Source of the DNA: a virus
DNA length: 43,624 nucleotides
Strand: one strand, 5' to 3'
IMG/VR virus record: IMGVR_UViG_3300010883_000085
Location: 1 to 43,624 of that record
In this document: positions 438 through 43,580 of the stretch, piece by piece
How the letters are laid out: the number at the start of each line of letters is the position of its first letter
Position numbering within the stretch: the first letter of the stretch is position 1
The notes under the pieces: model-generated
Database searches by the model: none
What the model was told of the DNA's origin: nothing
What the model saw: the letters and a program-made list of their open reading frames with translations, nothing else
Translations under genes and position numbers: made by a program

Positions 438-626
438 TTATTCATCATCCTTATTCTTGGCCTTAAGTACATTCAGTCCAAGTAGATTAACGAATCCTAG
501 AAGTTTATTCATGAGATCATTGTCCACCTTGGTGGGAGTAACCGCAGCGAGTGCCGCACATAGGGCAATAACCTTAGCTACGATATCCAAAGCTGCATCT
601 TGATTAGAAGTAAACCATTCAAACAT
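438..626 (-). CDS. Small holin-like membrane protein
   Basis: The 62-residue product has one hydrophobic Ala/Leu-rich segment at about residues 13-29, followed by a TPT motif and a second weakly hydrophobic helix ending in a charged tail (KNKDDE). This pattern, with VTPT after the first helix and LLGLNVLKAK before the tail, recurs in small phage proteins of the late region that are often proposed as holins. Function is inferred from size and topology only. Its ATG overlaps the stop of the large upstream gene by one base (TAATG), and the SET gene begins just after its stop. Confidence 0.5.
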   Translation of the reverse strand: MFEWFTSNQDAALDIVAKVIALCAALAAVTPTKVDNDLMNKLLGFVNLLGLNVLKAKNKDDE

Positions 627-3600
627 TATTCTTCTCCTCCGCCCAATAGTTGTCGGGCACTGTTGTAGACATTACCGGGAATATCTCCCATCCTGTCAGG
701 ATTTTCCATGTAGTACTGGGCTTCTCCGCTTAGAGTTTCCATCACACTTGGCTCCTCCATACTGCCAGACTCCTTAGCTTGTCTTATTATCTCTGAGTAA
801 TTAAATCTAGGATCTATAGACCCCTCAGGCATTCCGGGAGTACGAGATAGAAATAGATTTGCATCGGCTAGATCTTCAAGTTTCTTCTCTGTCTCGATTC
901 CACTATAGTTCACATCCATCTTAGATGCCTTAGGACCCCTACCAAAATTCTTGTCTGCCAGAATTCTCATATAAAGTCCTAGGGTATACTTAACCTTTCC
1001 CGAGGAGGCTTTCCCGTACTTTCCATATCCTGTCCATCCTCCCTGCCACGCATCTAGTATTACCCTAGCATTTAGCCAGTCAATCAATAATGCTCCCCGA
1101 CTCTTCATACTCATAAAGTCGGACATATCAAATATAGATCCGGGGTTAGGAACCGGCATAGTGCCACCGGCCCGCTCCGACCTTGCGATAGCAGTACCTG
1201 CATCAGATCCATCAGGAAGAAACTTAATTGCCGCTAGTACATCATCAAAATTTCCTAGCTGCTCCTTAGTAGCAATATCATCAAATATACCCTGAGCCTT
1301 CATCTTAAGCGCCGTGTTTTTAAGGCCAGCCTTATCTAGTACGGCAACTCCCCCCTGCTCTGATTTCATACTATTCATCATATATGTAATTATAGAGGCG
1401 GTAGCGGCCCTATCCCCCTCTTTATTCCCGTACATAGTCCTAAACTGATTAACTATGGCGTCAAACTTACTCTTATCTGTTGTAAACTGTTCCACCAACA
1501 GTCTGCCAGATTCAGTATCCTCGGATAATATCCGCACAAATTTAGGATTCTTAACTACGTCTTCTACCCTTAAAGCGTACTTCAAGAGATCCTTCTTTAG
1601 TGCGGGGGGTACAACCAGATCCAGAGCCTTCTGACTATCTATATCCTTTGCTCCTGATTGAAAAAGGGTACGTATGGCACTAGGATCTAAAGAAGATATT
1701 CTCTCCGCATAGCTTCCTGCAAGTGCTTCCCACTCAATCTTATTCATCGCACCACTCTTATACAGATCATGGAAAGATTGCACAAGGAGCGGATTATTGA
1801 TAGGATCTACTAACTCTCTGCCTATCTGAGTAGCCGATTTTGATGCGCTTGCTAGACTAGCTGCCTGAAACAGTCTATCCGTGTCCCTGAAACTTTTATA
1901 TCCTTTGTTTACCTCTTTAAGTTGGGAGAGAGTTTCCTTGCTAGCACCTTTTGGGTTAAATAGACTCTCATACAGTCCATGTTGTATTTCCCTAAGCAAC
2001 CTTTTATCTGTATTGGTAGTCAAAGACGTATAGTCTAAATTATCTGCTGTTGTCCTAAGTTGCCGCATAAATCCATAAGCAGTTTCACCAGAGACAGTTT
2101 CGTCTAGTTGGAGAACCTTAAGCATCAAGTTCTCTACGTCACCCCCCTTAGTTATACTATCCGCAGATATTTTTATGGGTCCATTAGGGCCATCGACAGT
2201 CTGATATTTGATGTCTCCTAGTACCCCTGCTATGTTTGCCTTGACTTTAGAAAGGTTCCAAGTAGCCCCTTCACCAGCTAGTTTTGTACCTACCTCGGTA
2301 AAATTGTCTGCCCATACTTTCTGGTTATGCGCCATCCAGCCATAGTAAGAATCAACTGTATTAGCTACCTTACTCTGCCAGCCTTCCTTTAGTCGAGGAA
2401 TTTTTCGTAGGGCCTCTTTTCGCATATTTTTGTTAATATCTTCTACCAACATCATAGCGTCTGCTTTAGGCATAGTTCCAAGACCTGGACCTACTTCAGT
2501 CAGGAAATTATCTGCCATAATCATACCCTGCTGAATTCGTCCCTTTGTATCCCTAGCACCTCTAGTGGTCAAATTCCACATACGAGTTATCTTAGCCTGA
2601 CCATTCTGAGTTACCATAGCGGGAAGAAGACGAGGACCGTTATACCTACTTATAGCCCTCTCCGCTTGCTTCCACATATCCTTGTGGGCTCCTCGAGATA
2701 CGTATACCCAAGTAGCAAATGGTTTAGTTGCTCGTATAAATGATCTTGCCATCACCTCACCGGCGCCATTTGCTATGGCTACATCCCGAGCCTCATTTAT
2801 CCTCTCCTGCAGGGATGGCATAGGTATATCATTGACCTGATTAAGATATTGATTTTCTGCCTCTATTGCTCCAACTCCGCCGAGTATAGACCCTGCTAGA
2901 CGGGCCCCCCCTGATGCAACCCTAGCTGCAGCGGTATTGGTAGTTCCCTTCCCTAAAGCCTTGTCCATGACTCCAGTCTTCCGCACTCCCTTAAATGCCC
3001 TTCCTGCTGCTGAATTCCCTGCCATAGATCCAAGTATCTCACCAGCACCAGCAGCCATTTCATCTAGTGCACCTAGAGTAACAGTCTGAAACGGCTCATT
3101 CTCATTTCTTCTGGCGAACAACATAAGCTCACCATCCCGTATGGGATTGGAGATTATCCTGGTCTCTATTCCAGGTATGGCACTGTCCAGGGCCTTCTGC
3201 TCAGAATCCATACTAGTATCTAGCATACCTCTTCGAGCAAATACAGCCACCATCTCTCCATAGGTTAGGTCAAGATACCCACCCTTAATAGGACCGCCAA
3301 GAATATTCTCCATGTTGGTTACAGCTTCTTTATTGATCCAGTCTACATAATTAGCGTCAGCGGAAGGAAACATATCGGGATGGGTAAAGGGAGTCGCTCC
3401 AAGCATTTCCTGCGCCGCAGCCAGACCTGTCATGCTGTTTCTATTTAATTCCTCTGCGAATCCGGGAGCGCCCAGGGGAGATCCTCCTTCTATCCCCCTA
3501 CGATTATACTCACCTACTATATCTCTCCAATTCAACGGAGTATCTGGCAATGGCCCCTGTACCTCGTTGACTATCTCCGGCGGCTGACTTCCCGTAAGTA

Positions 3601-3880
3601 TGGACTCTAGTCCCTGCTCTAGTCTATTTTGAGGGGTTATATCTGTCGCAGCCTTCTGTCCCCCTACCCCAGGAAACATTTGATCTGCTACCGGTCGAAG
3701 GGTCTCCATGCCAAAACGCGTAGCCATATCCTCAAACCCTATAGACTTTTCTAGCCCTTTCCTCTCTATGAGATGCCGCATGGCTTTATGTACGGCCTGG
3801 TTCCGATCTGGAGCATCCACAGAATACCCAGGAAAGACTTCAAATTCTATATCAACGGGAGCCTTTTTATTATCTGCCAT
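626..3880 (-). CDS. Very large structural protein, probable internal virion/ejection protein
   Basis: This is a 1084-residue protein with no catalytic motif that I recognise. Residues about 270-340 are Gly/Ala-rich and mildly hydrophobic (GAGEILGSMAGNSAAG, SGGARLAGSILGG), and the rest is mainly charged helix. Large helical proteins at the end of the tail block, after the nozzle gene, are typical of podovirus internal virion proteins that are ejected with the DNA, and I infer that role from position, size and composition. There is no transglycosylase signature that I could find. Start ATG at 3880 has AAAGGT upstream. The stop of the preceding gene is 2 nt before it, so the two are probably translationally coupled. 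Confidence 0.6.
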   Translation of the reverse strand: MADNKKAPVDIEFEVFPGYSVDAPDRNQAVHKAMRHLIERKGLEKSIGFEDMATRFGMETLRPVADQMFPGVGGQKAATDITPQNRLEQGLESILTGSQPPEIVNEVQGPLPDTPLNWRDIVGEYNRRGIEGGSPLGAPGFAEELNRNSMTGLAAAQEMLGATPFTHPDMFPSADANYVDWINKEAVTNMENILGGPIKGGYLDLTYGEMVAVFARRGMLDTSMDSEQKALDSAIPGIETRIISNPIRDGELMLFARRNENEPFQTVTLGALDEMAAGAGEILGSMAGNSAAGRAFKGVRKTGVMDKALGKGTTNTAAARVASGGARLAGSILGGVGAIEAENQYLNQVNDIPMPSLQERINEARDVAIANGAGEVMARSFIRATKPFATWVYVSRGAHKDMWKQAERAISRYNGPRLLPAMVTQNGQAKITRMWNLTTRGARDTKGRIQQGMIMADNFLTEVGPGLGTMPKADAMMLVEDINKNMRKEALRKIPRLKEGWQSKVANTVDSYYGWMAHNQKVWADNFTEVGTKLAGEGATWNLSKVKANIAGVLGDIKYQTVDGPNGPIKISADSITKGGDVENLMLKVLQLDETVSGETAYGFMRQLRTTADNLDYTSLTTNTDKRLLREIQHGLYESLFNPKGASKETLSQLKEVNKGYKSFRDTDRLFQAASLASASKSATQIGRELVDPINNPLLVQSFHDLYKSGAMNKIEWEALAGSYAERISSLDPSAIRTLFQSGAKDIDSQKALDLVVPPALKKDLLKYALRVEDVVKNPKFVRILSEDTESGRLLVEQFTTDKSKFDAIVNQFRTMYGNKEGDRAATASIITYMMNSMKSEQGGVAVLDKAGLKNTALKMKAQGIFDDIATKEQLGNFDDVLAAIKFLPDGSDAGTAIARSERAGGTMPVPNPGSIFDMSDFMSMKSRGALLIDWLNARVILDAWQGGWTGYGKYGKASSGKVKYTLGLYMRILADKNFGRGPKASKMDVNYSGIETEKKLEDLADANLFLSRTPGMPEGSIDPRFNYSEIIRQAKESGSMEEPSVMETLSGEAQYYMENPDRMGDIPGNVYNSARQLLGGGEE

Positions 3881-36181: not shown

Positions 36182-36404
36182 TATTAGACTAGAACGGCTT
36201 CTCAAATCTGTTGACACTATGTCATCTCAGGAGCTTAGGGAGGCTATAGGAGAGGTGCGACGGGATAGAGCACAATCTAAGAAGGTTCAGAGAACATCTA
36301 CTAAACAAGGTCGTCAGCGTAAAGTTGACAAGCTAAGTGCCTTGTTGAATAGTATGTCTCCAGAAGAACGTAGAAAGGTATTAGGGGCGAAGAAAAATGG
36401 CTGA
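36174..36404 (+). CDS. Small basic helical protein
   Basis: The 76-residue product is rich in Arg, Lys, Glu and Ser (LREAIGEVRRDRAQSKKVQR, NSMSPEERRKVLG) and is nearly all helix. It overlaps genes on both sides, so it belongs to the ParB-methyltransferase transcript. It could bind DNA as a partner of that protein, but no motif is diagnostic. Confidence 0.6.
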   Translation: MDDIRLERLLKSVDTMSSQELREAIGEVRRDRAQSKKVQRTSTKQGRQRKVDKLSALLNSMSPEERRKVLGAKKNG

Positions 36405-37755
36405 TGATATTTTGGTAGAGATGATAAACGTAGGTGACCGGTATCGGCAGAACTATGGAGACATAGAAGAGCTAAAGGAATCTATTGAGAAGCACGGAGT
36501 GATCCAACCCATTACTATCTGTATCTCATTAGATACCCCCTCTAGCTATGACCTAGTGGCCGGTGGCCGTAGGCTAGAAGCAACCCGCATGGCGGGGTTG
36601 AAAACTATACCGGCAGTAGTTAGAGAGATCGCAGGGGAAGAGGATCTGAGAGAGATTGAACTGGTAGAGAATATCCAGCGAAAAGATCTTGACTGGCCCG
36701 AGCGATGTCTCCTAGAGGAGCGGATCGTCGAGTTGAAGGGGAGCCAGTCTGCTGCTGCTGATACCCTAGACCACTCCGTAGGCCTGACAAACCGCCACGT
36801 GCAGATGGCGCAGGCTATGAAAATGATCCCCGAGCTATCTCAATGTAAGAACATAGCCGAGGCTGAACGACAGCTGAAGAAGTTTGAAGAGTCAGTCTTA
36901 GTAGAGGCACTCAAGAGAAAAGCAGATGATTCTCTCGATCTCCAGCATGATGTCACTATCACCGGCGATGCCCGGAAGGATGCTCGGCTGGCTAAGAGGT
37001 TGGAAGATATCAGCTACTTCTACAACATTGGCGATGCTTTAGAGGGGATGCGGAATATCCCAGAAGGTAGACAGTTCCACTTTGCCGAGGTAGATCCCCC
37101 TTATGGAATTGATCTGGCAGACCAGAAAAGAACTTCTTCTACTACAAATATCAATAGAACTGATGGCTATACCGAAGTTAGTGAGGATACCTACCATGAC
37201 TGGACTGTATCCATAGCCAAGGAAGTGTACCGACACCTAGAACATGGCGCATACTGTGTCTGGTGGTTCGCTCCCACAATGGCCGAGGAAGTTCGGACTG
37301 CTCTTATAGAGGCAGAGTTCGAAGTTGATGGTATCCCGGCTATTTGGGTAAAGCCGAACGGTCAAACACAGCAACCTCATCTTCACCTGGCACGTTGCTA
37401 CGAACCTTTTTATATCGCCAGGAAGGGAAAGGCTACACTGAAGAAAGCTGGTAGAGGAAATGTATTCGCGTTTAATCCTGTGTCTCCTAATAAAAAGGTA
37501 CATCCTACGGAGCGTCCTATCGAGCTGATCCAGGAAATACTTGATACCTTCTCTTACCCAGGGTATAAAGTTCTCTGTCCTTTTCTCGGTTCTGGTAAGA
37601 CTCTAATTAGCGCCCTGTCCAGGGATATGCACGCCTATGGATGGGATCTTAACGAAGAATATAAGGACCAATTCCTAAGAATCTGTGTAGATTACTTCAT
37701 AGAAAACGAGGAAGATGGTGACCTGAAGGGAGAAGAAGGGGATGTACAATACTAA
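36397..37755 (+). CDS. ParB-like domain fused to a DNA methyltransferase
   Basis: The 452-residue fusion has residues 1-115 as a ParB N-terminal-type domain (DIEELKESIEKHGVIQPITI, LVAGGRRLEATRMAG, ELVENIQRKDLDWPERC). Residues about 205-430 are an N4-cytosine/N6-adenine methyltransferase with motif IV DPPYGI at about 231 before motif I FLGSGKT at about 395, so it is beta-class. No restriction enzyme is adjacent, so it is a solitary methyltransferase, perhaps protecting phage DNA from host restriction or marking it for packaging or replication. ParB-methyltransferase fusions are known in phages and mobile elements. Confidence 0.85.
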   Translation: MADDILVEMINVGDRYRQNYGDIEELKESIEKHGVIQPITICISLDTPSSYDLVAGGRRLEATRMAGLKTIPAVVREIAGEEDLREIELVENIQRKDLDWPERCLLEERIVELKGSQSAAADTLDHSVGLTNRHVQMAQAMKMIPELSQCKNIAEAERQLKKFEESVLVEALKRKADDSLDLQHDVTITGDARKDARLAKRLEDISYFYNIGDALEGMRNIPEGRQFHFAEVDPPYGIDLADQKRTSSTTNINRTDGYTEVSEDTYHDWTVSIAKEVYRHLEHGAYCVWWFAPTMAEEVRTALIEAEFEVDGIPAIWVKPNGQTQQPHLHLARCYEPFYIARKGKATLKKAGRGNVFAFNPVSPNKKVHPTERPIELIQEILDTFSYPGYKVLCPFLGSGKTLISALSRDMHAYGWDLNEEYKDQFLRICVDYFIENEEDGDLKGEEGDVQY

Positions 37756-39358
37756 TGCCTATACCGAGGGAGATCCTAACTCGCTAATAGCCTTCGTGGC
37801 AGAGGCTCCGGCTAGGGTGGAGGAAGTAAGAAATCGCCCCCTAGTCGGGGAGAGCGGGATAGTATGGGACACCCTACTGCAAGCCGCAGGAATCTCTCGA
37901 TCAGAAGCATTCACCATAAACTGTGTAAAGCATCGCATATCTAGCCCAGATAAGTATATGACAAAATCTGGTCTTACTACGGAAGGTATGGCGGTTCGAG
38001 ATGATGTTAAGGAAAGGTTAAAGAATTGTAAGGCTAATGTAATAGTGGCCCTAGGGAAACTTTCCACTTGTATCCTAACAGGCGAGACAGAGATAACAAA
38101 ATACAGGGGGTCCATCCTACCCAGCACCCTCCTTCCAGGTAAGAAAGTAATACCTACCTACCACCCCGCATATACCCTACTAAGGCGAGGCCCTGGAAAC
38201 TATCTATTCCGATACGATATAGTTGCAGATCTAAAGCAAGCTAAGAGGCATAAAGAATTCCCTGAGATTCCTGCTCCTACGCTGGAAGCCATTCTAGATC
38301 CTACCTTTAATCAGGTTATTGATTTTATAGATATGGTGAATAGAGATCCTAAGATAAACATCTTCGGGTATGATGTAGAGTGCTATAATAACCAGATCTC
38401 TTGTCTCGCTATAGCACCTCATAAGGATCTATCTTTCTGCGTGCCCTTCGTGAATAGATGGAACGAGGCTCAAGAAACACAGATATGGCTTGCCCTCTGT
38501 AAACTAATGAAGAACACCGAAGTAACCAAGGTGATGCACAACTTTCTATTCGACGTCTCGTACACATGGCATCAATCTAAGATCCTCACCCGAGGGCCTA
38601 TTGAGTGTACTATGACCGCTTATAGAACCATGTACCCAGATATGCGCTCAGGCCTAGACCATCTAGTATCTATCTACACCGAGCATAGATACTATAAAGA
38701 TGATAGAAAGCTATGGAAGACTCCCGCCAGAGATCCTATGGCATTTTGGCTTTATAACTGCAGGGACTCAGCATATACTATAGAAGTCTGGGAGCATGTG
38801 AAGAAGGAACTCGAGGCTGATGAAGATTATAGCAAGATGTACAAAGAGGACATGGAATTAACTGACCCTCTTCTATGGATGATGACAGCGGGTATCCCGA
38901 TAGATGTAGAGCAGCTGAACATAATGAAAGCTGATGTAATTAAGGAACTCGCGGAGACGGTAGAGGAGTTGCATTCAACTGCTAGGGAAGAGTTTAATCC
39001 TGGCTCTGCCGTCCAGGTTATTAAGTATTTCTATGACACCCTAAAATTGAAGCCTTACCTAAATAGGGGCAAACGAACCTGTGATGATAAGGCTCTTTCA
39101 AGAATTGCCCGGAGAGATAATCTCCCCGAAGCAAGAATACTGCAGAAGTGGCGACACCTGGATAAACTGCGTAGCACCTATTTGGAATTGGAGTATGACC
39201 CGGATAAGAAACTAAGATGTTTCTATCAACTGAAGGGTACAAAAAGTGCCCGGCTATCATCAACCAAGACTCTTAAAGGAACTGGTCTGAACATGCAAAA
39301 TTTAGATCCGGCCTTTAAGAGATTTCTATACTGTGAAGGAGAAGAGGATGGGAGCTAG
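37742..39358 (+). CDS. DNA polymerase part 1: UDG-like, 3'-5' exonuclease and thumb
   Basis: The 538-residue product holds three parts. Residues about 15-165 resemble uracil-DNA glycosylase family 4/5 (VAEAPARVEEVRNRPLVGESG near 19-39, TYHPAYTLLR at 139-148), though the usual N-terminal iron-sulphur Cys pair is missing. Residues about 208-345 are a DnaQ-type exonuclease with D211 and E213 (YDVEC), N267 and D271 (HNFLFD) and Y338/D342 (YNCRD). The rest is family A thumb ending with RLSS and NMQNLDPAFKRF. It stops before motif A, so it cannot polymerise alone. It overlaps the methyltransferase stop by 14 nt. Confidence 0.85.
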   Translation: MYNTNAYTEGDPNSLIAFVAEAPARVEEVRNRPLVGESGIVWDTLLQAAGISRSEAFTINCVKHRISSPDKYMTKSGLTTEGMAVRDDVKERLKNCKANVIVALGKLSTCILTGETEITKYRGSILPSTLLPGKKVIPTYHPAYTLLRRGPGNYLFRYDIVADLKQAKRHKEFPEIPAPTLEAILDPTFNQVIDFIDMVNRDPKINIFGYDVECYNNQISCLAIAPHKDLSFCVPFVNRWNEAQETQIWLALCKLMKNTEVTKVMHNFLFDVSYTWHQSKILTRGPIECTMTAYRTMYPDMRSGLDHLVSIYTEHRYYKDDRKLWKTPARDPMAFWLYNCRDSAYTIEVWEHVKKELEADEDYSKMYKEDMELTDPLLWMMTAGIPIDVEQLNIMKADVIKELAETVEELHSTAREEFNPGSAVQVIKYFYDTLKLKPYLNRGKRTCDDKALSRIARRDNLPEARILQKWRHLDKLRSTYLELEYDPDKKLRCFYQLKGTKSARLSSTKTLKGTGLNMQNLDPAFKRFLYCEGEEDGS

Positions 39359-39704
39359 ACTACCGCTAGGACGTAAGCAAGAGATTTTCGCAGAGCATTT
39401 AAGTACACTAATATCCCTGATGTTCGCGTCGGGATATAGGGTTCGTTACGGGGAAGTGGAGAGATCCAAAGCTGAAGCATTCCGTAAAGGATTCCCCAAC
39501 AGCAATCATACCCGACGTCTTGCTGCTGATCTGCATCTATTCAGAGATGGAAAGTATTTAATGCAGACAGAAGATCACGAAACCTTTGGGATCATCTGGG
39601 AATCCTTCTCTCGGAAGATCGACGGAGTTTGGGTTCAGTTCTGCTGGGGTGGTCGCTTCCGAGACGGCAATCACTATTCAATCCAACATGGGAAGGTGAA
39701 GTAA
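39348..39704 (+). CDS. M15-family endolysin (L-alanyl-D-glutamate peptidase-like)
   Basis: The 118-residue product has the M15 metallopeptidase pattern: His54 (NSNHTRRLAADLHLF) and Asp61, with His109 (DGNHYS) as third zinc ligand and the usual CWGG before it. Such enzymes cut the cell-wall stem peptide. ATG at 39348 has AAGGAG 6 nt upstream; GTG 39333 is also in frame but lies inside that site. It overlaps polymerase part 1 by 11 nt and its stop is directly followed by the ATG of part 2. It has no signal peptide, so a holin must release it. Confidence 0.85.
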   Translation: MGARLPLGRKQEIFAEHLSTLISLMFASGYRVRYGEVERSKAEAFRKGFPNSNHTRRLAADLHLFRDGKYLMQTEDHETFGIIWESFSRKIDGVWVQFCWGGRFRDGNHYSIQHGKVK

Positions 39705-40595
39705 ATGAAAAAGGCTTGCTTAGTCGAGCTAGACCTTCGCCAAGCTGAGTGGATCGTCACTGCCTTTGCCGCACAAGAACCTAAGATGATGGAGATTTAC
39801 TGGTCGGGGCAGGATCCACATCTCTCCACTGGTACCCTCATATCAGGGGCTCCTCCAGAGGTGGTACGAGAAGACAGTAAGCTCGTAGGTCACTTAACTG
39901 ATCCTGTGGAGATAGCTAAGAAAAGGAGTAAATTCAAAGTTGAGACGATGGCTAGGTTCTACTTTCCTCGCTCTATGGCTATTCGACAGGCGGGGAAAAA
40001 AAGTAACCACGGATTTAATTATAGGATGGGCTATAAAAGATTTGCTTTAGAGAACGAAATTAAAGAATCAGAATCTAAAACAATCCACGAGAAATACCAC
40101 AAGGCATATCCTAATCTCTACTCATGGTATCAATCAATAGAAGAGGAGATGAGAACTACTAGAACTCTCAACACTTGCTTCGGGGATAAGCGTAGATTTC
40201 TAGGAGCATATACCACCGAGATGGTAAACGAAGCTATCTCATGGATACCCCAGACTACCGTGGCACGGGTCACTAAGTATGGTATGTATGCAGTATATAA
40301 TGACTCTAGGCTAAAAGATAAAATGGATCTACGGGCGAACGTCCACGATTCTATCCTAGTCAGGGCAACCTACTCTTCTATCGCAGAATTAATAGACTTG
40401 CTCAGACTTTCAAAATCTCACATGGGGGAACATCTAGAATATCATCATAGAGAATTCACTCTTCGCGTAGACATTAAGGTGGGGGTAAACTGGGGCTTTA
40501 TGGAAGACATCCCTGAAAAAATAACTGACGAGGGGGTGGTCTCCGAGGCCCTGGAGAAGAGCGTTGTCAAAAGCGAAGAAGCGAAAACTGGATGA
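39705..40595 (+). CDS. DNA polymerase part 2: family A palm and fingers
   Basis: The 296-residue product begins MKKACLVELDLRQAEW, where D10 and E15 form motif A. Motif B is at 94-106 (RQAGKKSNHGFNY) and motif C at 213-216 (VHDS). These are the three catalytic motifs of the family A palm and fingers, so the two parts together (538 plus 296 residues) make one complete UDG-exonuclease-polymerase. The cut falls between the RLSS/NLQN segment and motif A. ATG 39705 has its own AAGG site. Both halves look intact, so assembly in trans is likely. Confidence 0.85.
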   Translation: MKKACLVELDLRQAEWIVTAFAAQEPKMMEIYWSGQDPHLSTGTLISGAPPEVVREDSKLVGHLTDPVEIAKKRSKFKVETMARFYFPRSMAIRQAGKKSNHGFNYRMGYKRFALENEIKESESKTIHEKYHKAYPNLYSWYQSIEEEMRTTRTLNTCFGDKRRFLGAYTTEMVNEAISWIPQTTVARVTKYGMYAVYNDSRLKDKMDLRANVHDSILVRATYSSIAELIDLLRLSKSHMGEHLEYHHREFTLRVDIKVGVNWGFMEDIPEKITDEGVVSEALEKSVVKSEEAKTG

Positions 40596-41769
40596 TCTCC
40601 TAGTATCGTGGCTAGAGTATACTAAGAATACCGAGAGTCCTACTCCGTATCATCTCTGGTCATGTATATCCACTATAGCCGCTACAATGGAACGCAGAGT
40701 ATACCTCGACTGGGGGCATACCAAGATATACTCTAATATGTACATCTGTCTCATCGGACCTTCAGGAGGACGAAAGGGGGAACCTATATCTATTGCTCGG
40801 GATTTCCTCGGCCATGTCAGAGTGAATATAGTATCCCAATCTATTATTCGGGAGGCGCTAATTAGGAGGATGAAGCAGGTAGCCACCACCTACCCCACAG
40901 CAGACAGGACCCTAGAAAATCAGAGTGCTATGGCAGTAGTATCCCCCGAGCTTGCGGTATTCCTCGGGGAGAATAACATAAAACTTCTGGCTGATCTAAC
41001 AGACTGGTATGACTCTCATCCTAAGTGGGTATATGAGACAAAGGGATCGGGCACGGATGAAATCATAGGGGTGTGTTTTAACATGCTAGGAGCTATGGCA
41101 CCTGACTGGATACCCCTAGTCATACCTCACGGAGCTATCGGTGGTGGGTTCACCTCTCGTATTATATTTGTAGTTGAGCATAAAAAGGGAAAGACTATTA
41201 CCAACCCCAACTTGCATGGAGTGGACAGGAGCCTAGGAGCAGATATAAAACATGACCTAGAACTCGTCAAGATGCTATCGGGATCATTTGAGTTTGATCC
41301 TAAAGCACTAAAGCTATACGAGGAATGGTACGCAAATGAAGATGATAAGATAGATTTGGGTATGCCCCCTATCAAAGATCCACGTTTCTCCGGCTATGTC
41401 TCTCGGAGGGCCACTCATATAAAGAAGATAGCGATGGTTGTATCAGTTGCTAGGTCCTCTACATTGATCATCACAGAGAATGACCTGCTCAGAGCTAAGG
41501 GCCTGATGGAAACCGCAGAGGTTAATATGTCTGATGTCTTCGGGAAGGTAGGCAGGACAATCTATACTGCCCAGACCCAGGAGGTAATGGATATAATCAG
41601 GAGTAGGGGGGAGATGAAGAGGTCAGAACTTATGCGTATAATGTATAGAGATGTGGACGACTCTATGATGCGGGGGATAGAAGCAACTCTCACAGCTATG
41701 AGGGTTATATCCTCTACCCCCATCACCGATGGGAGACTTGATTATATGTTCAAGTGGATCGGGAATTAG
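40564..41769 (+). CDS. DUF3987-like P-loop ATPase, possible replicative helicase
   Basis: The 401-residue product has an N-terminal helical segment, then a P-loop variant GPSGGRKG at 65-72 in which the usual Ser/Thr is Gly, and later acidic residues (SPELAVFLGENN, ETKGSGTDEIIG). The pattern fits DUF3987 proteins, thought to be replicative ATPases or helicases of mobile elements. It overlaps polymerase part 2 by 32 nt and starts with TTG at 40564, with GGAG 7 nt upstream. A C-terminal winged-helix-like segment (MDIIRSRGEMKRSELMRIM) may bind DNA. Confidence 0.65.
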   Translation: MSKAKKRKLDDLLVSWLEYTKNTESPTPYHLWSCISTIAATMERRVYLDWGHTKIYSNMYICLIGPSGGRKGEPISIARDFLGHVRVNIVSQSIIREALIRRMKQVATTYPTADRTLENQSAMAVVSPELAVFLGENNIKLLADLTDWYDSHPKWVYETKGSGTDEIIGVCFNMLGAMAPDWIPLVIPHGAIGGGFTSRIIFVVEHKKGKTITNPNLHGVDRSLGADIKHDLELVKMLSGSFEFDPKALKLYEEWYANEDDKIDLGMPPIKDPRFSGYVSRRATHIKKIAMVVSVARSSTLIITENDLLRAKGLMETAEVNMSDVFGKVGRTIYTAQTQEVMDIIRSRGEMKRSELMRIMYRDVDDSMMRGIEATLTAMRVISSTPITDGRLDYMFKWIGN

Positions 41770-43022: not shown

Positions 43023-43217
43023 CTAAGAATCTGTAATAATAACCACTGCAATCTTCCCTGGCGTTACCTCCGCTGTAGTAATAGTTCGGATAGTCTTAGT
43101 ATTAACTATACCTTGGAGATAGTCATTGACATCTTTCGCTAGGGATGCGGTTGAACTGTCTTGGGTAGCATCTGCGGACCCCACTATTATCTTAGTATCA
43201 GTATCAAAATTAGCCAT
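43023..43217 (-). CDS. Small soluble protein, unknown
   Basis: The 64-residue product (MANFDTDTKIIVGSADATQD) is polar in its first half and strand-rich in its second (IRTITTAEVTPGKIAVVIIT). It lies in the lysis-like cassette with a 1 nt TAATG overlap. No function is recognisable. Confidence 0.55.
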   Translation of the reverse strand: MANFDTDTKIIVGSADATQDSSTASLAKDVNDYLQGIVNTKTIRTITTAEVTPGKIAVVIITDS

Positions 43218-43444
43218 TAGTTTCCTCTCATAGCTTTTATTCCGTCACAGTATCTGTCCACTTCACCTATCCAAATTAACAAGGCTTCATGAGTATCAGA
43301 CACTATCAATTCCTCAACATCATCCACGGCGGGTACTGTTATAGGGGGACAGGCAGGAGGCCTACCGGCCCAAACTCCGGCGCAGCTTACTGACCAACTC
43401 ACGCCCAGAAGCAGCAGGCTTTTCCATAACTTTGTCGAAAGCAT
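43217..43444 (-). CDS. Possible o-spanin-like secreted protein
   Basis: The 75-residue product has a signal-like start (KLWKSLLLLGVSWSVSCAG). The Cys in SVSC could be lipidated, but the lipobox is imperfect (Ser at -3). After it the chain is Pro-rich (RPPACPPITVPAV) as in many o-spanins. Its first 83 nt overlap the end of the upstream membrane gene in another frame, like the Rz/Rz1 arrangement. ATG 43444 has AGGAT 8 nt upstream. Identification is tentative. Confidence 0.5.
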   Translation of the reverse strand: MLSTKLWKSLLLLGVSWSVSCAGVWAGRPPACPPITVPAVDDVEELIVSDTHEALLIWIGEVDRYCDGIKAMRGN

Positions 43445-43580
43445 TTCTTTTATCCTGTCCTTCCTGGAGGGAATCCCTCTCTGCTATAGACTTGCCGCTA
43501 GATTTTGATACCCTAACTAGGATACCTATAACCAGCACAAATAACAATACTCCACCAGCTACTATATATAAGCTAGTCAT
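43362..43580 (-). CDS. Possible i-spanin-like small membrane protein
   Basis: The 72-residue product has one N-terminal membrane segment (residues 5-24, YIVAGGVLLFVLVIGILVRV) and a charged soluble tail (AERDSLQEGQDKRNAFDKV). It is short for an i-spanin but overlaps the o-spanin-like gene. The start at 43580 equals base 79 of the window's left end, so the gene is intact only when the genome is read as a circle. Confidence 0.5.
   Translation of the reverse strand: MTSLYIVAGGVLLFVLVIGILVRVSKSSGKSIAERDSLQEGQDKRNAFDKVMEKPAASGRELVSKLRRSLGR

Follow-up and report, generated by a model that had tools for sequence, protein, structure and literature searches.

How can a replicative family A DNA polymerase work in two pieces that are cut beside its catalytic aspartate, and how is a site for passenger genes maintained inside an essential gene? 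These questions are raised by the 43,624-nucleotide viral DNA of IMG/VR record IMGVR_UViG_3300010883_000085 (positions 1 to 43,624, the whole of which is termed here the window), in which a polymerase of the UDG-exonuclease-PolA type is encoded by two genes, PolA part 1 (37742..39358, + strand, 538 amino acids) and PolA part 2 (39705..40595, + strand, 296 amino acids), with a complete gene for an M15 (LAS-type) endolysin between them (39348..39704, + strand, 118 amino acids, ATG start). A third question, whether an endolysin made with replication proteins alters the timing of lysis, follows from the identity of the insert. An earlier reading of the letters alone, referred to below as the original prediction, had described this arrangement and proposed that the lysis gene, as the separator, couples replication to lysis. 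The coordinates and content of the locus were confirmed, whereas the proposed role of the separator was not, as the split predates this endolysin and relatives carry an empty or differently occupied slot. What appeared as a single-genome curiosity thus becomes a lineage-wide, testable architecture.

The two polymerase genes divide the enzyme cleanly, and Pfam and PHROG profiles agree with the division originally proposed. Part 1, for which PDB matches were also obtained, carries a UDG-superfamily domain, a 3'-5' exonuclease and the thumb and ends just short of motif A; its Pfam matches are to UDG (5e-11), DNA_pol_A_exo1 (1.5e-8) and positions 2-125 of the 381 in the DNA_pol_A profile. Part 2 supplies the palm and fingers, motifs A, B and C included, and matches DNA_pol_A positions 206-380 (3.8e-24), the motif A stretch being an adjoining weaker match. 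Against PHROG 17, part 1 covers positions 474-985 and part 2 positions 1008-1246, leaving about 22 profile positions between them unmatched; the halves therefore span this profile almost end to end, so that hardly any polymerase sequence is absent, and together they supply as complementary chains the thumb, palm and fingers of a family A polymerase (PF00476). When part 2 was modelled alone with AlphaFold2, the model reached a predicted local distance difference test (pLDDT) score of 96.2 and was matched by Foldseek to the Pol I enzymes of Taq and Bst with E-values of about 1e-13. Across the 28 part 2 rows checked, residues D10, K98, Y106, H214 and D215 are invariant and R94 is present in 27, so that part 2 has the motif A aspartate, the motif B R..K..Y pattern, the motif C HD pair and the palm and fingers fold of family A. 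Its motif C reads HDS, not HDE, as it also does in intact relatives. Part 2 had been said to start three residues before the motif A strand; as a small correction, it begins five residues ahead of LVELD, and residue 3 is the first of that strand in the model. Ratios of nonsynonymous to synonymous substitution (dN/dS) between the window and its close relative L002 are 0.042 for part 1, 0.067 for part 2 and 0.047 for the neighbouring DUF3987 gene, values that are rough because synonymous sites are nearly saturated, and they indicate strong purifying selection on both halves.

The inserted gene is likewise well defined. Its open reading frame (ORF) lies in the +1 frame, overlaps part 1 by 11 nucleotides and ends in a TAA that directly abuts the ATG of part 2, and the 346-nucleotide gap between the halves is almost entirely coding; the overlap at one end and zero spacing at the other are as originally described. 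The protein matches a PHROG endolysin family at 3.7e-5, and its AlphaFold model, built from 47 sequences, has a pLDDT of 94.9. Foldseek aligned this model to LysECD7, Ply500, ChiX and VanX in the PDB with probabilities of 0.99-1.00 (1.00 for the first three), TM scores (query) of 0.54-0.60 and E-values of merely 0.006-0.02, as expected of a LAS fold. Three residues, H54, D61 and H109, do not vary among 47 homologues and fit the HxxxxxxD and C-terminal histidine ligands of zinc, and homologues lie beside holins; a sequence-only search of the PDB gave chance-level matches. By fold, ligands and cassette position, then, and not by Pfam, the 118-residue protein is of M15 type, with a predicted hydrolase role. 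Between the window and L002 its dN is 0.23, with dS beyond estimation.

The age of the split is set by its relatives, which are viral contigs (denoted by L numbers) recovered in searches with alignments of part 1 and part 2; these have intact and many split polymerases and are nearly all uncultured, their passenger genes having been assigned from profile searches and, for some, by visual inspection. The gene order part 1, M15, part 2 recurs in L002, which comes from a separate assembly, at 84, 76 and 80% identity, respectively, and with the ATGA and TAATG overlaps that are common to many relatives. A tree was built from 64 polymerases (845 columns). The 37 rows that share this split, among which L238 is a near-copy of L178, form one clade with support of 100/99 that is present in all 200 bootstrap trees and requires one state change. 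The split thus goes back to a single old event in this lineage, and the identity of the split point in all 37 rows is far beyond chance. Part 1 ends throughout the clade at or shortly past a stretch resembling NLQNLHPEFKxFIVA(D/G), and the start of part 2, typically M..(L/I)(V/I)E(F/L)D, lies a few residues ahead of the motif A strand; this places the cut in the loop preceding that strand and agrees with the earlier view of a loop junction between two functional-looking halves. The split persists in lineages whose halves are just about 35-45% identical to those of the window. The search for the same junction in related phages, which the original prediction had suggested, thus recovered it both with and without an endolysin. 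The search of annotated phage records recovered no member of the split clade; matches from a genome scan were contigs no longer than 49 kb, which are probably of phage origin and had been binned with metagenome-assembled genomes.

Comparison across the clade shows that passenger genes occupy the junction and are swapped there. The halves range from overlapping to standing 2.8 kb apart, separated by unrelated genes in changing frames. The slot holds no gene in L193 and L295, one small ORF in, for example, L173, L180, L184 and L195, remnants of an HNH Zn-ribbon in L094 and L096, a subtilase gene in L181 and a match to a phage cysteine-dioxygenase family in L236. ThyX genes stand beside an endolysin in the slots of L230 (2895-3683, by Pfam), L323 (4039-4701) and L324 (1341-2003; the latter two by resemblance), so that nucleotide metabolism genes recur there too. 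Clear endolysins occupy the slot in 13 of the 37 rows, and weaker endolysin-like genes in three more (L178, L238, L230). The clear cases comprise the short M15 type (the window and L002), an M15_4 type mostly with a peptidoglycan-binding domain (L104, L107, L188, L261, L323, L324) and a GH25 type with such a domain (L187, L194, L199, L224, L228), and parsimony places four state changes in endolysin presence on the tree. In the main endolysin subclade, 10 records, which may be incomplete, were searched for the GH25 and M15_4 families; eight have such a gene solely in the slot, and the other two (L210, L236) have one solely elsewhere and a slot without an endolysin. The recurrence of endolysins of unrelated families makes the association stronger than one genome would suggest.

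The window's own passenger most probably came from the late lysis cassette. On the minus strand this cassette comprises a putative holin gene (438..626), an i-spanin-like gene (43362..43580) and an overlapping o-spanin-like gene (43217..43444), and it borders a large gene, probably for a virion protein (626..3880), whose stop is overlapped by the holin gene as TAATG. The i-spanin-like gene is homologous and syntenic with those of L003-L005, and the o-spanin-like gene with those of L003-L004. The putative holin is 82% identical to the L002 copy and 63-74% identical to the product of the gene right after M15 in L003-L005. Those three contigs encode M15 homologues that are 61-62% identical, in the order very long gene, M15, small putative holin and then spanin-like genes, the M15 gene thus lying between the equivalent of the large virion gene and the holin. 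In Microcystis phage Mel-JY34 an M15 homologue abuts an annotated holin, and polA is intact. The cassettes of the window and L002 retain the putative holin and spanin-like genes without M15: the large virion-type gene runs directly into the holin gene in the window and meets it across a short spacer in L002, and no second copy or remnant of M15 was found in the window cassette. Comparison of these cassettes suggests that the M15 gene left the cassette and entered polA in the ancestor of the window and L002. The next relatives in the tree carry another passenger (L181) or none (L193), and no M15 gene, as would mark an intermediate state, was seen in the partial contigs of L181, L193 and L295. 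A gene for a SET-domain protein (80-472, - strand) lies within the window cassette between holin and i-spanin, as it does in L004 (6554-6898). The cassette spans the record ends, with the spanins at 43.2-43.6 kb, the SET and holin genes at 0.1-0.6 kb and the window ending at 1/43624; the genome is therefore probably circular or circularly permuted.

Whether the halves ever become one chain, or have ceased to matter, is decided largely by the same comparisons. Phage polymerase genes are well known to harbour introns and inteins, and an intron was considered by the authors of the MEP401 study for a similar split (PMC10580990), so that removal of the insert as an intron or intein, by programmed bypass or by DNA excision could in principle restore one intact polymerase. 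We consider this highly improbable: each half has its own stop or start at the same place across relatives, in which the halves overlap or are held apart by up to 2.8 kb of other genes in shifting frames, and in the window the gap is nearly all coding. Intron and intein were rejected specifically, as no Rfam match to a group I or group II intron was found in 37500-41000 and neither half carries extra sequence at its junction end; programmed excision was rejected on the finding of neither a recombinase among the passengers nor long exact direct repeats flanking the insert; and a frameshift or sequencing error, which the original prediction had also rejected, is excluded by the separate ORF in the gap and by the same gene order in L002. 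An essential gene is often inactivated by insertion, and the polymerase might accordingly be a pseudogene, with replication left to a host or other enzyme; this is the least credible of the readings considered here, given purifying selection on both halves, the retention of catalytic residues across divergent rows and the finding by Pfam of no further polymerase (nor any further endolysin) among the 45 other window proteins. Decayed halves, a second polymerase or signs of an intron, each named beforehand as counting against the split, were thus looked for and not found.

The significance of the endolysin in the slot is harder to settle. It may be a neutral passenger in DNA that is simply permissive, its content meaningless for replication or lysis, and the great diversity of passengers, unrelated metabolic genes included, together with the empty slots, gives this view a substantial claim, which we nonetheless place somewhat below an even chance; against it stand the several endolysin families, which recur in 13-16 of 37 rows and require no fewer than four state changes on the tree, and the eight of 10 subclade records in which the sole GH25/M15_4 gene found sits in the slot. 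Conversely, how much of the catalytic half is made might be set by read-through of the endolysin cistron, and the dose of endolysin by polymerase synthesis. Translational coupling through gene overlaps is plausible in view of the 11-nucleotide overlap and abutting TAA-ATG of the window and the ATGA/TAATG arrangements of L002 and many relatives, endolysins do recur in the slot, and no terminator-like site was found on the + strand between the halves, where a promoter and terminator scan gave results at or below chance. True coupling of this kind nevertheless seems unlikely, as the late cassette still holds holin and spanins, endolysin-free slots persist equally, and part 2 of the window is preceded by a GGAAGG-like ribosome site of its own, so that coupling need not be obligatory. 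Equally doubtful is the stronger proposal that the junction is an adaptive docking site whose flanking halves exchange lysis modules, with obligatory coupling through the endolysin cistron tying endolysin dose to the catalytic half and thereby joining replication and lysis capacity in one operon. This endolysin as the cause of the split is ruled out by the relatives with empty or other slots. Timing of lysis most likely depends on the holin and spanins, whose genes remain apart from polA in the late cassette of the opposite strand; the late holin, and not polymerase synthesis, would then set it.

We therefore favor, with good confidence, a reading in which the polymerase acts as two chains, the junction serves as a passenger site probably opened by an endonuclease, the M15 gene most probably moved in, and the holin times lysis. 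The UDG-exo-PolA gene was split once in the ancestor of the lineage, as the tree shows, in the loop that leads into the motif A strand, and the polymerase has since then been encoded as two polypeptides (UDG-exo-thumb and palm-fingers) from neighbouring, mostly overlapping cistrons, which may assemble in trans into one working replicative enzyme, as gp43A and gp43B do. The junction became a site of passenger exchange, and in the window lineage the passenger is the phage's sole recognisable endolysin, an M15 peptidase most probably moved from a holin-adjacent cassette; it would be made with the replication proteins, wait in the cytoplasm and act once the late holin opens the membrane. The junction itself was most likely opened when a homing endonuclease gene inserted there, a view held with moderate confidence. 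Homing endonucleases are known agents of such phage gene splits (PMC2988022); in L167, which belongs to another clade and was independently split at nearly the same place, an intact HNH_3 gene lies directly before part 2, and in L201 and L206 HNH genes occupy the split between exonuclease and thumb. These observations are suggestive, not proof.

Several points weigh against this reading. The window split has no endonuclease gene, and the proposed endonuclease origin draws on fragments in two closely related clade members and the case from the other clade. By sequence alone the endolysin is a weak M15 match and misses the Pfam cut-off (M15_4, PF13539: E 0.013, 16.5 bits vs 25). L002 is the sole close relative with this endolysin in the slot, and the suggested direction of the M15 move draws on few genomes. 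The holin and spanin roles are putative, being assigned from size, position and synteny, and assembly and activity of the halves are predictions that lean on precedent.

That precedent comes from the T4-related Aeromonas phages 25 and 44RR, in which a replicative polymerase is likewise split by insertion into gp43A and gp43B; the halves from phage 25 co-purify and have polymerase activity, and a homing endonuclease is associated with the split (PMC2988022). However, these are family B enzymes cut at an unrelated site, and what separates the halves is either an endonuclease gene or a spacer that is not translated. The nrdA gene of Aeromonas phage Aeh1, split by mobE, and the topoisomerase of T4, split by mobA, similarly keep function in trans (PMC2988022), but they are other enzymes and the insert is the endonuclease itself. 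Closer in position are the Methylophilales (OM43) phages MEP401 and MEP402, in which a small ORF separates the two that encode a family A polymerase (PMC10580990). In MEP401 (OP830906; L253 6111-8221) part 1 ends in NLQNFDGEIKTLFLSRYGE and MILNADAKALEWV opens part 2, which puts the cut at the window's position ahead of motif A; unlike the window, MEP401 has no UDG domain, its intervening ORF is a 77-residue protein of unknown function and not an endolysin, and its polymerase looks different and is not part of the tree. In the freely accessible literature, MEP401 and the T4-like cases were all that came up, and nothing relevant was found on a split PolA with an endolysin. It was already known that phage polymerases can be split and that homing endonucleases split genes, with an endonuclease, spacer or small ORF as the insert; what is new is that one old split in a replicative UDG-polymerase has persisted while the content of its slot was replaced many times, repeatedly by a recognisable endolysin. 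The split point also offers a natural guide for the design of two-part polymerases.

The surroundings of the locus are those of intact genes. Upstream, a gene for a ParB-like protein with an N6/N4 methyltransferase (36397..37755, + strand) overlaps part 1, and downstream a DUF3987 gene (40564..41769, + strand; DNA primase by PHROG) overlaps part 2. The same domains and neighbours, ParB-methyltransferase before and DUF3987 after, accompany the UDG-PolA of Desulfofustis phage LS06-2018-MD01, MW202489 and Mel-JY34, which, unlike the window, have a single uninterrupted polA, the endolysin of Mel-JY34 lying in its late region. Neighbouring groups in the tree are characterised by a second type of split, which falls between exonuclease and thumb (L137, L186, L190, L197, L200, L201, L206, L277, L281, L329 and others); its passengers include HNH endonucleases (L201 4956-5378, L206 2089-2559), a helicase-like gene (L186 3485-4630) and a dCMP deaminase (L281 4931-5383). 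Finally, a different polymerase clade contains three more splits near the point used in the window, with ThyX as the passenger in L163 (7617-8711), a DnaQ-like exonuclease and the HNH endonuclease in L167 (7689-9661), and a short gap in L171 (7644-7724).

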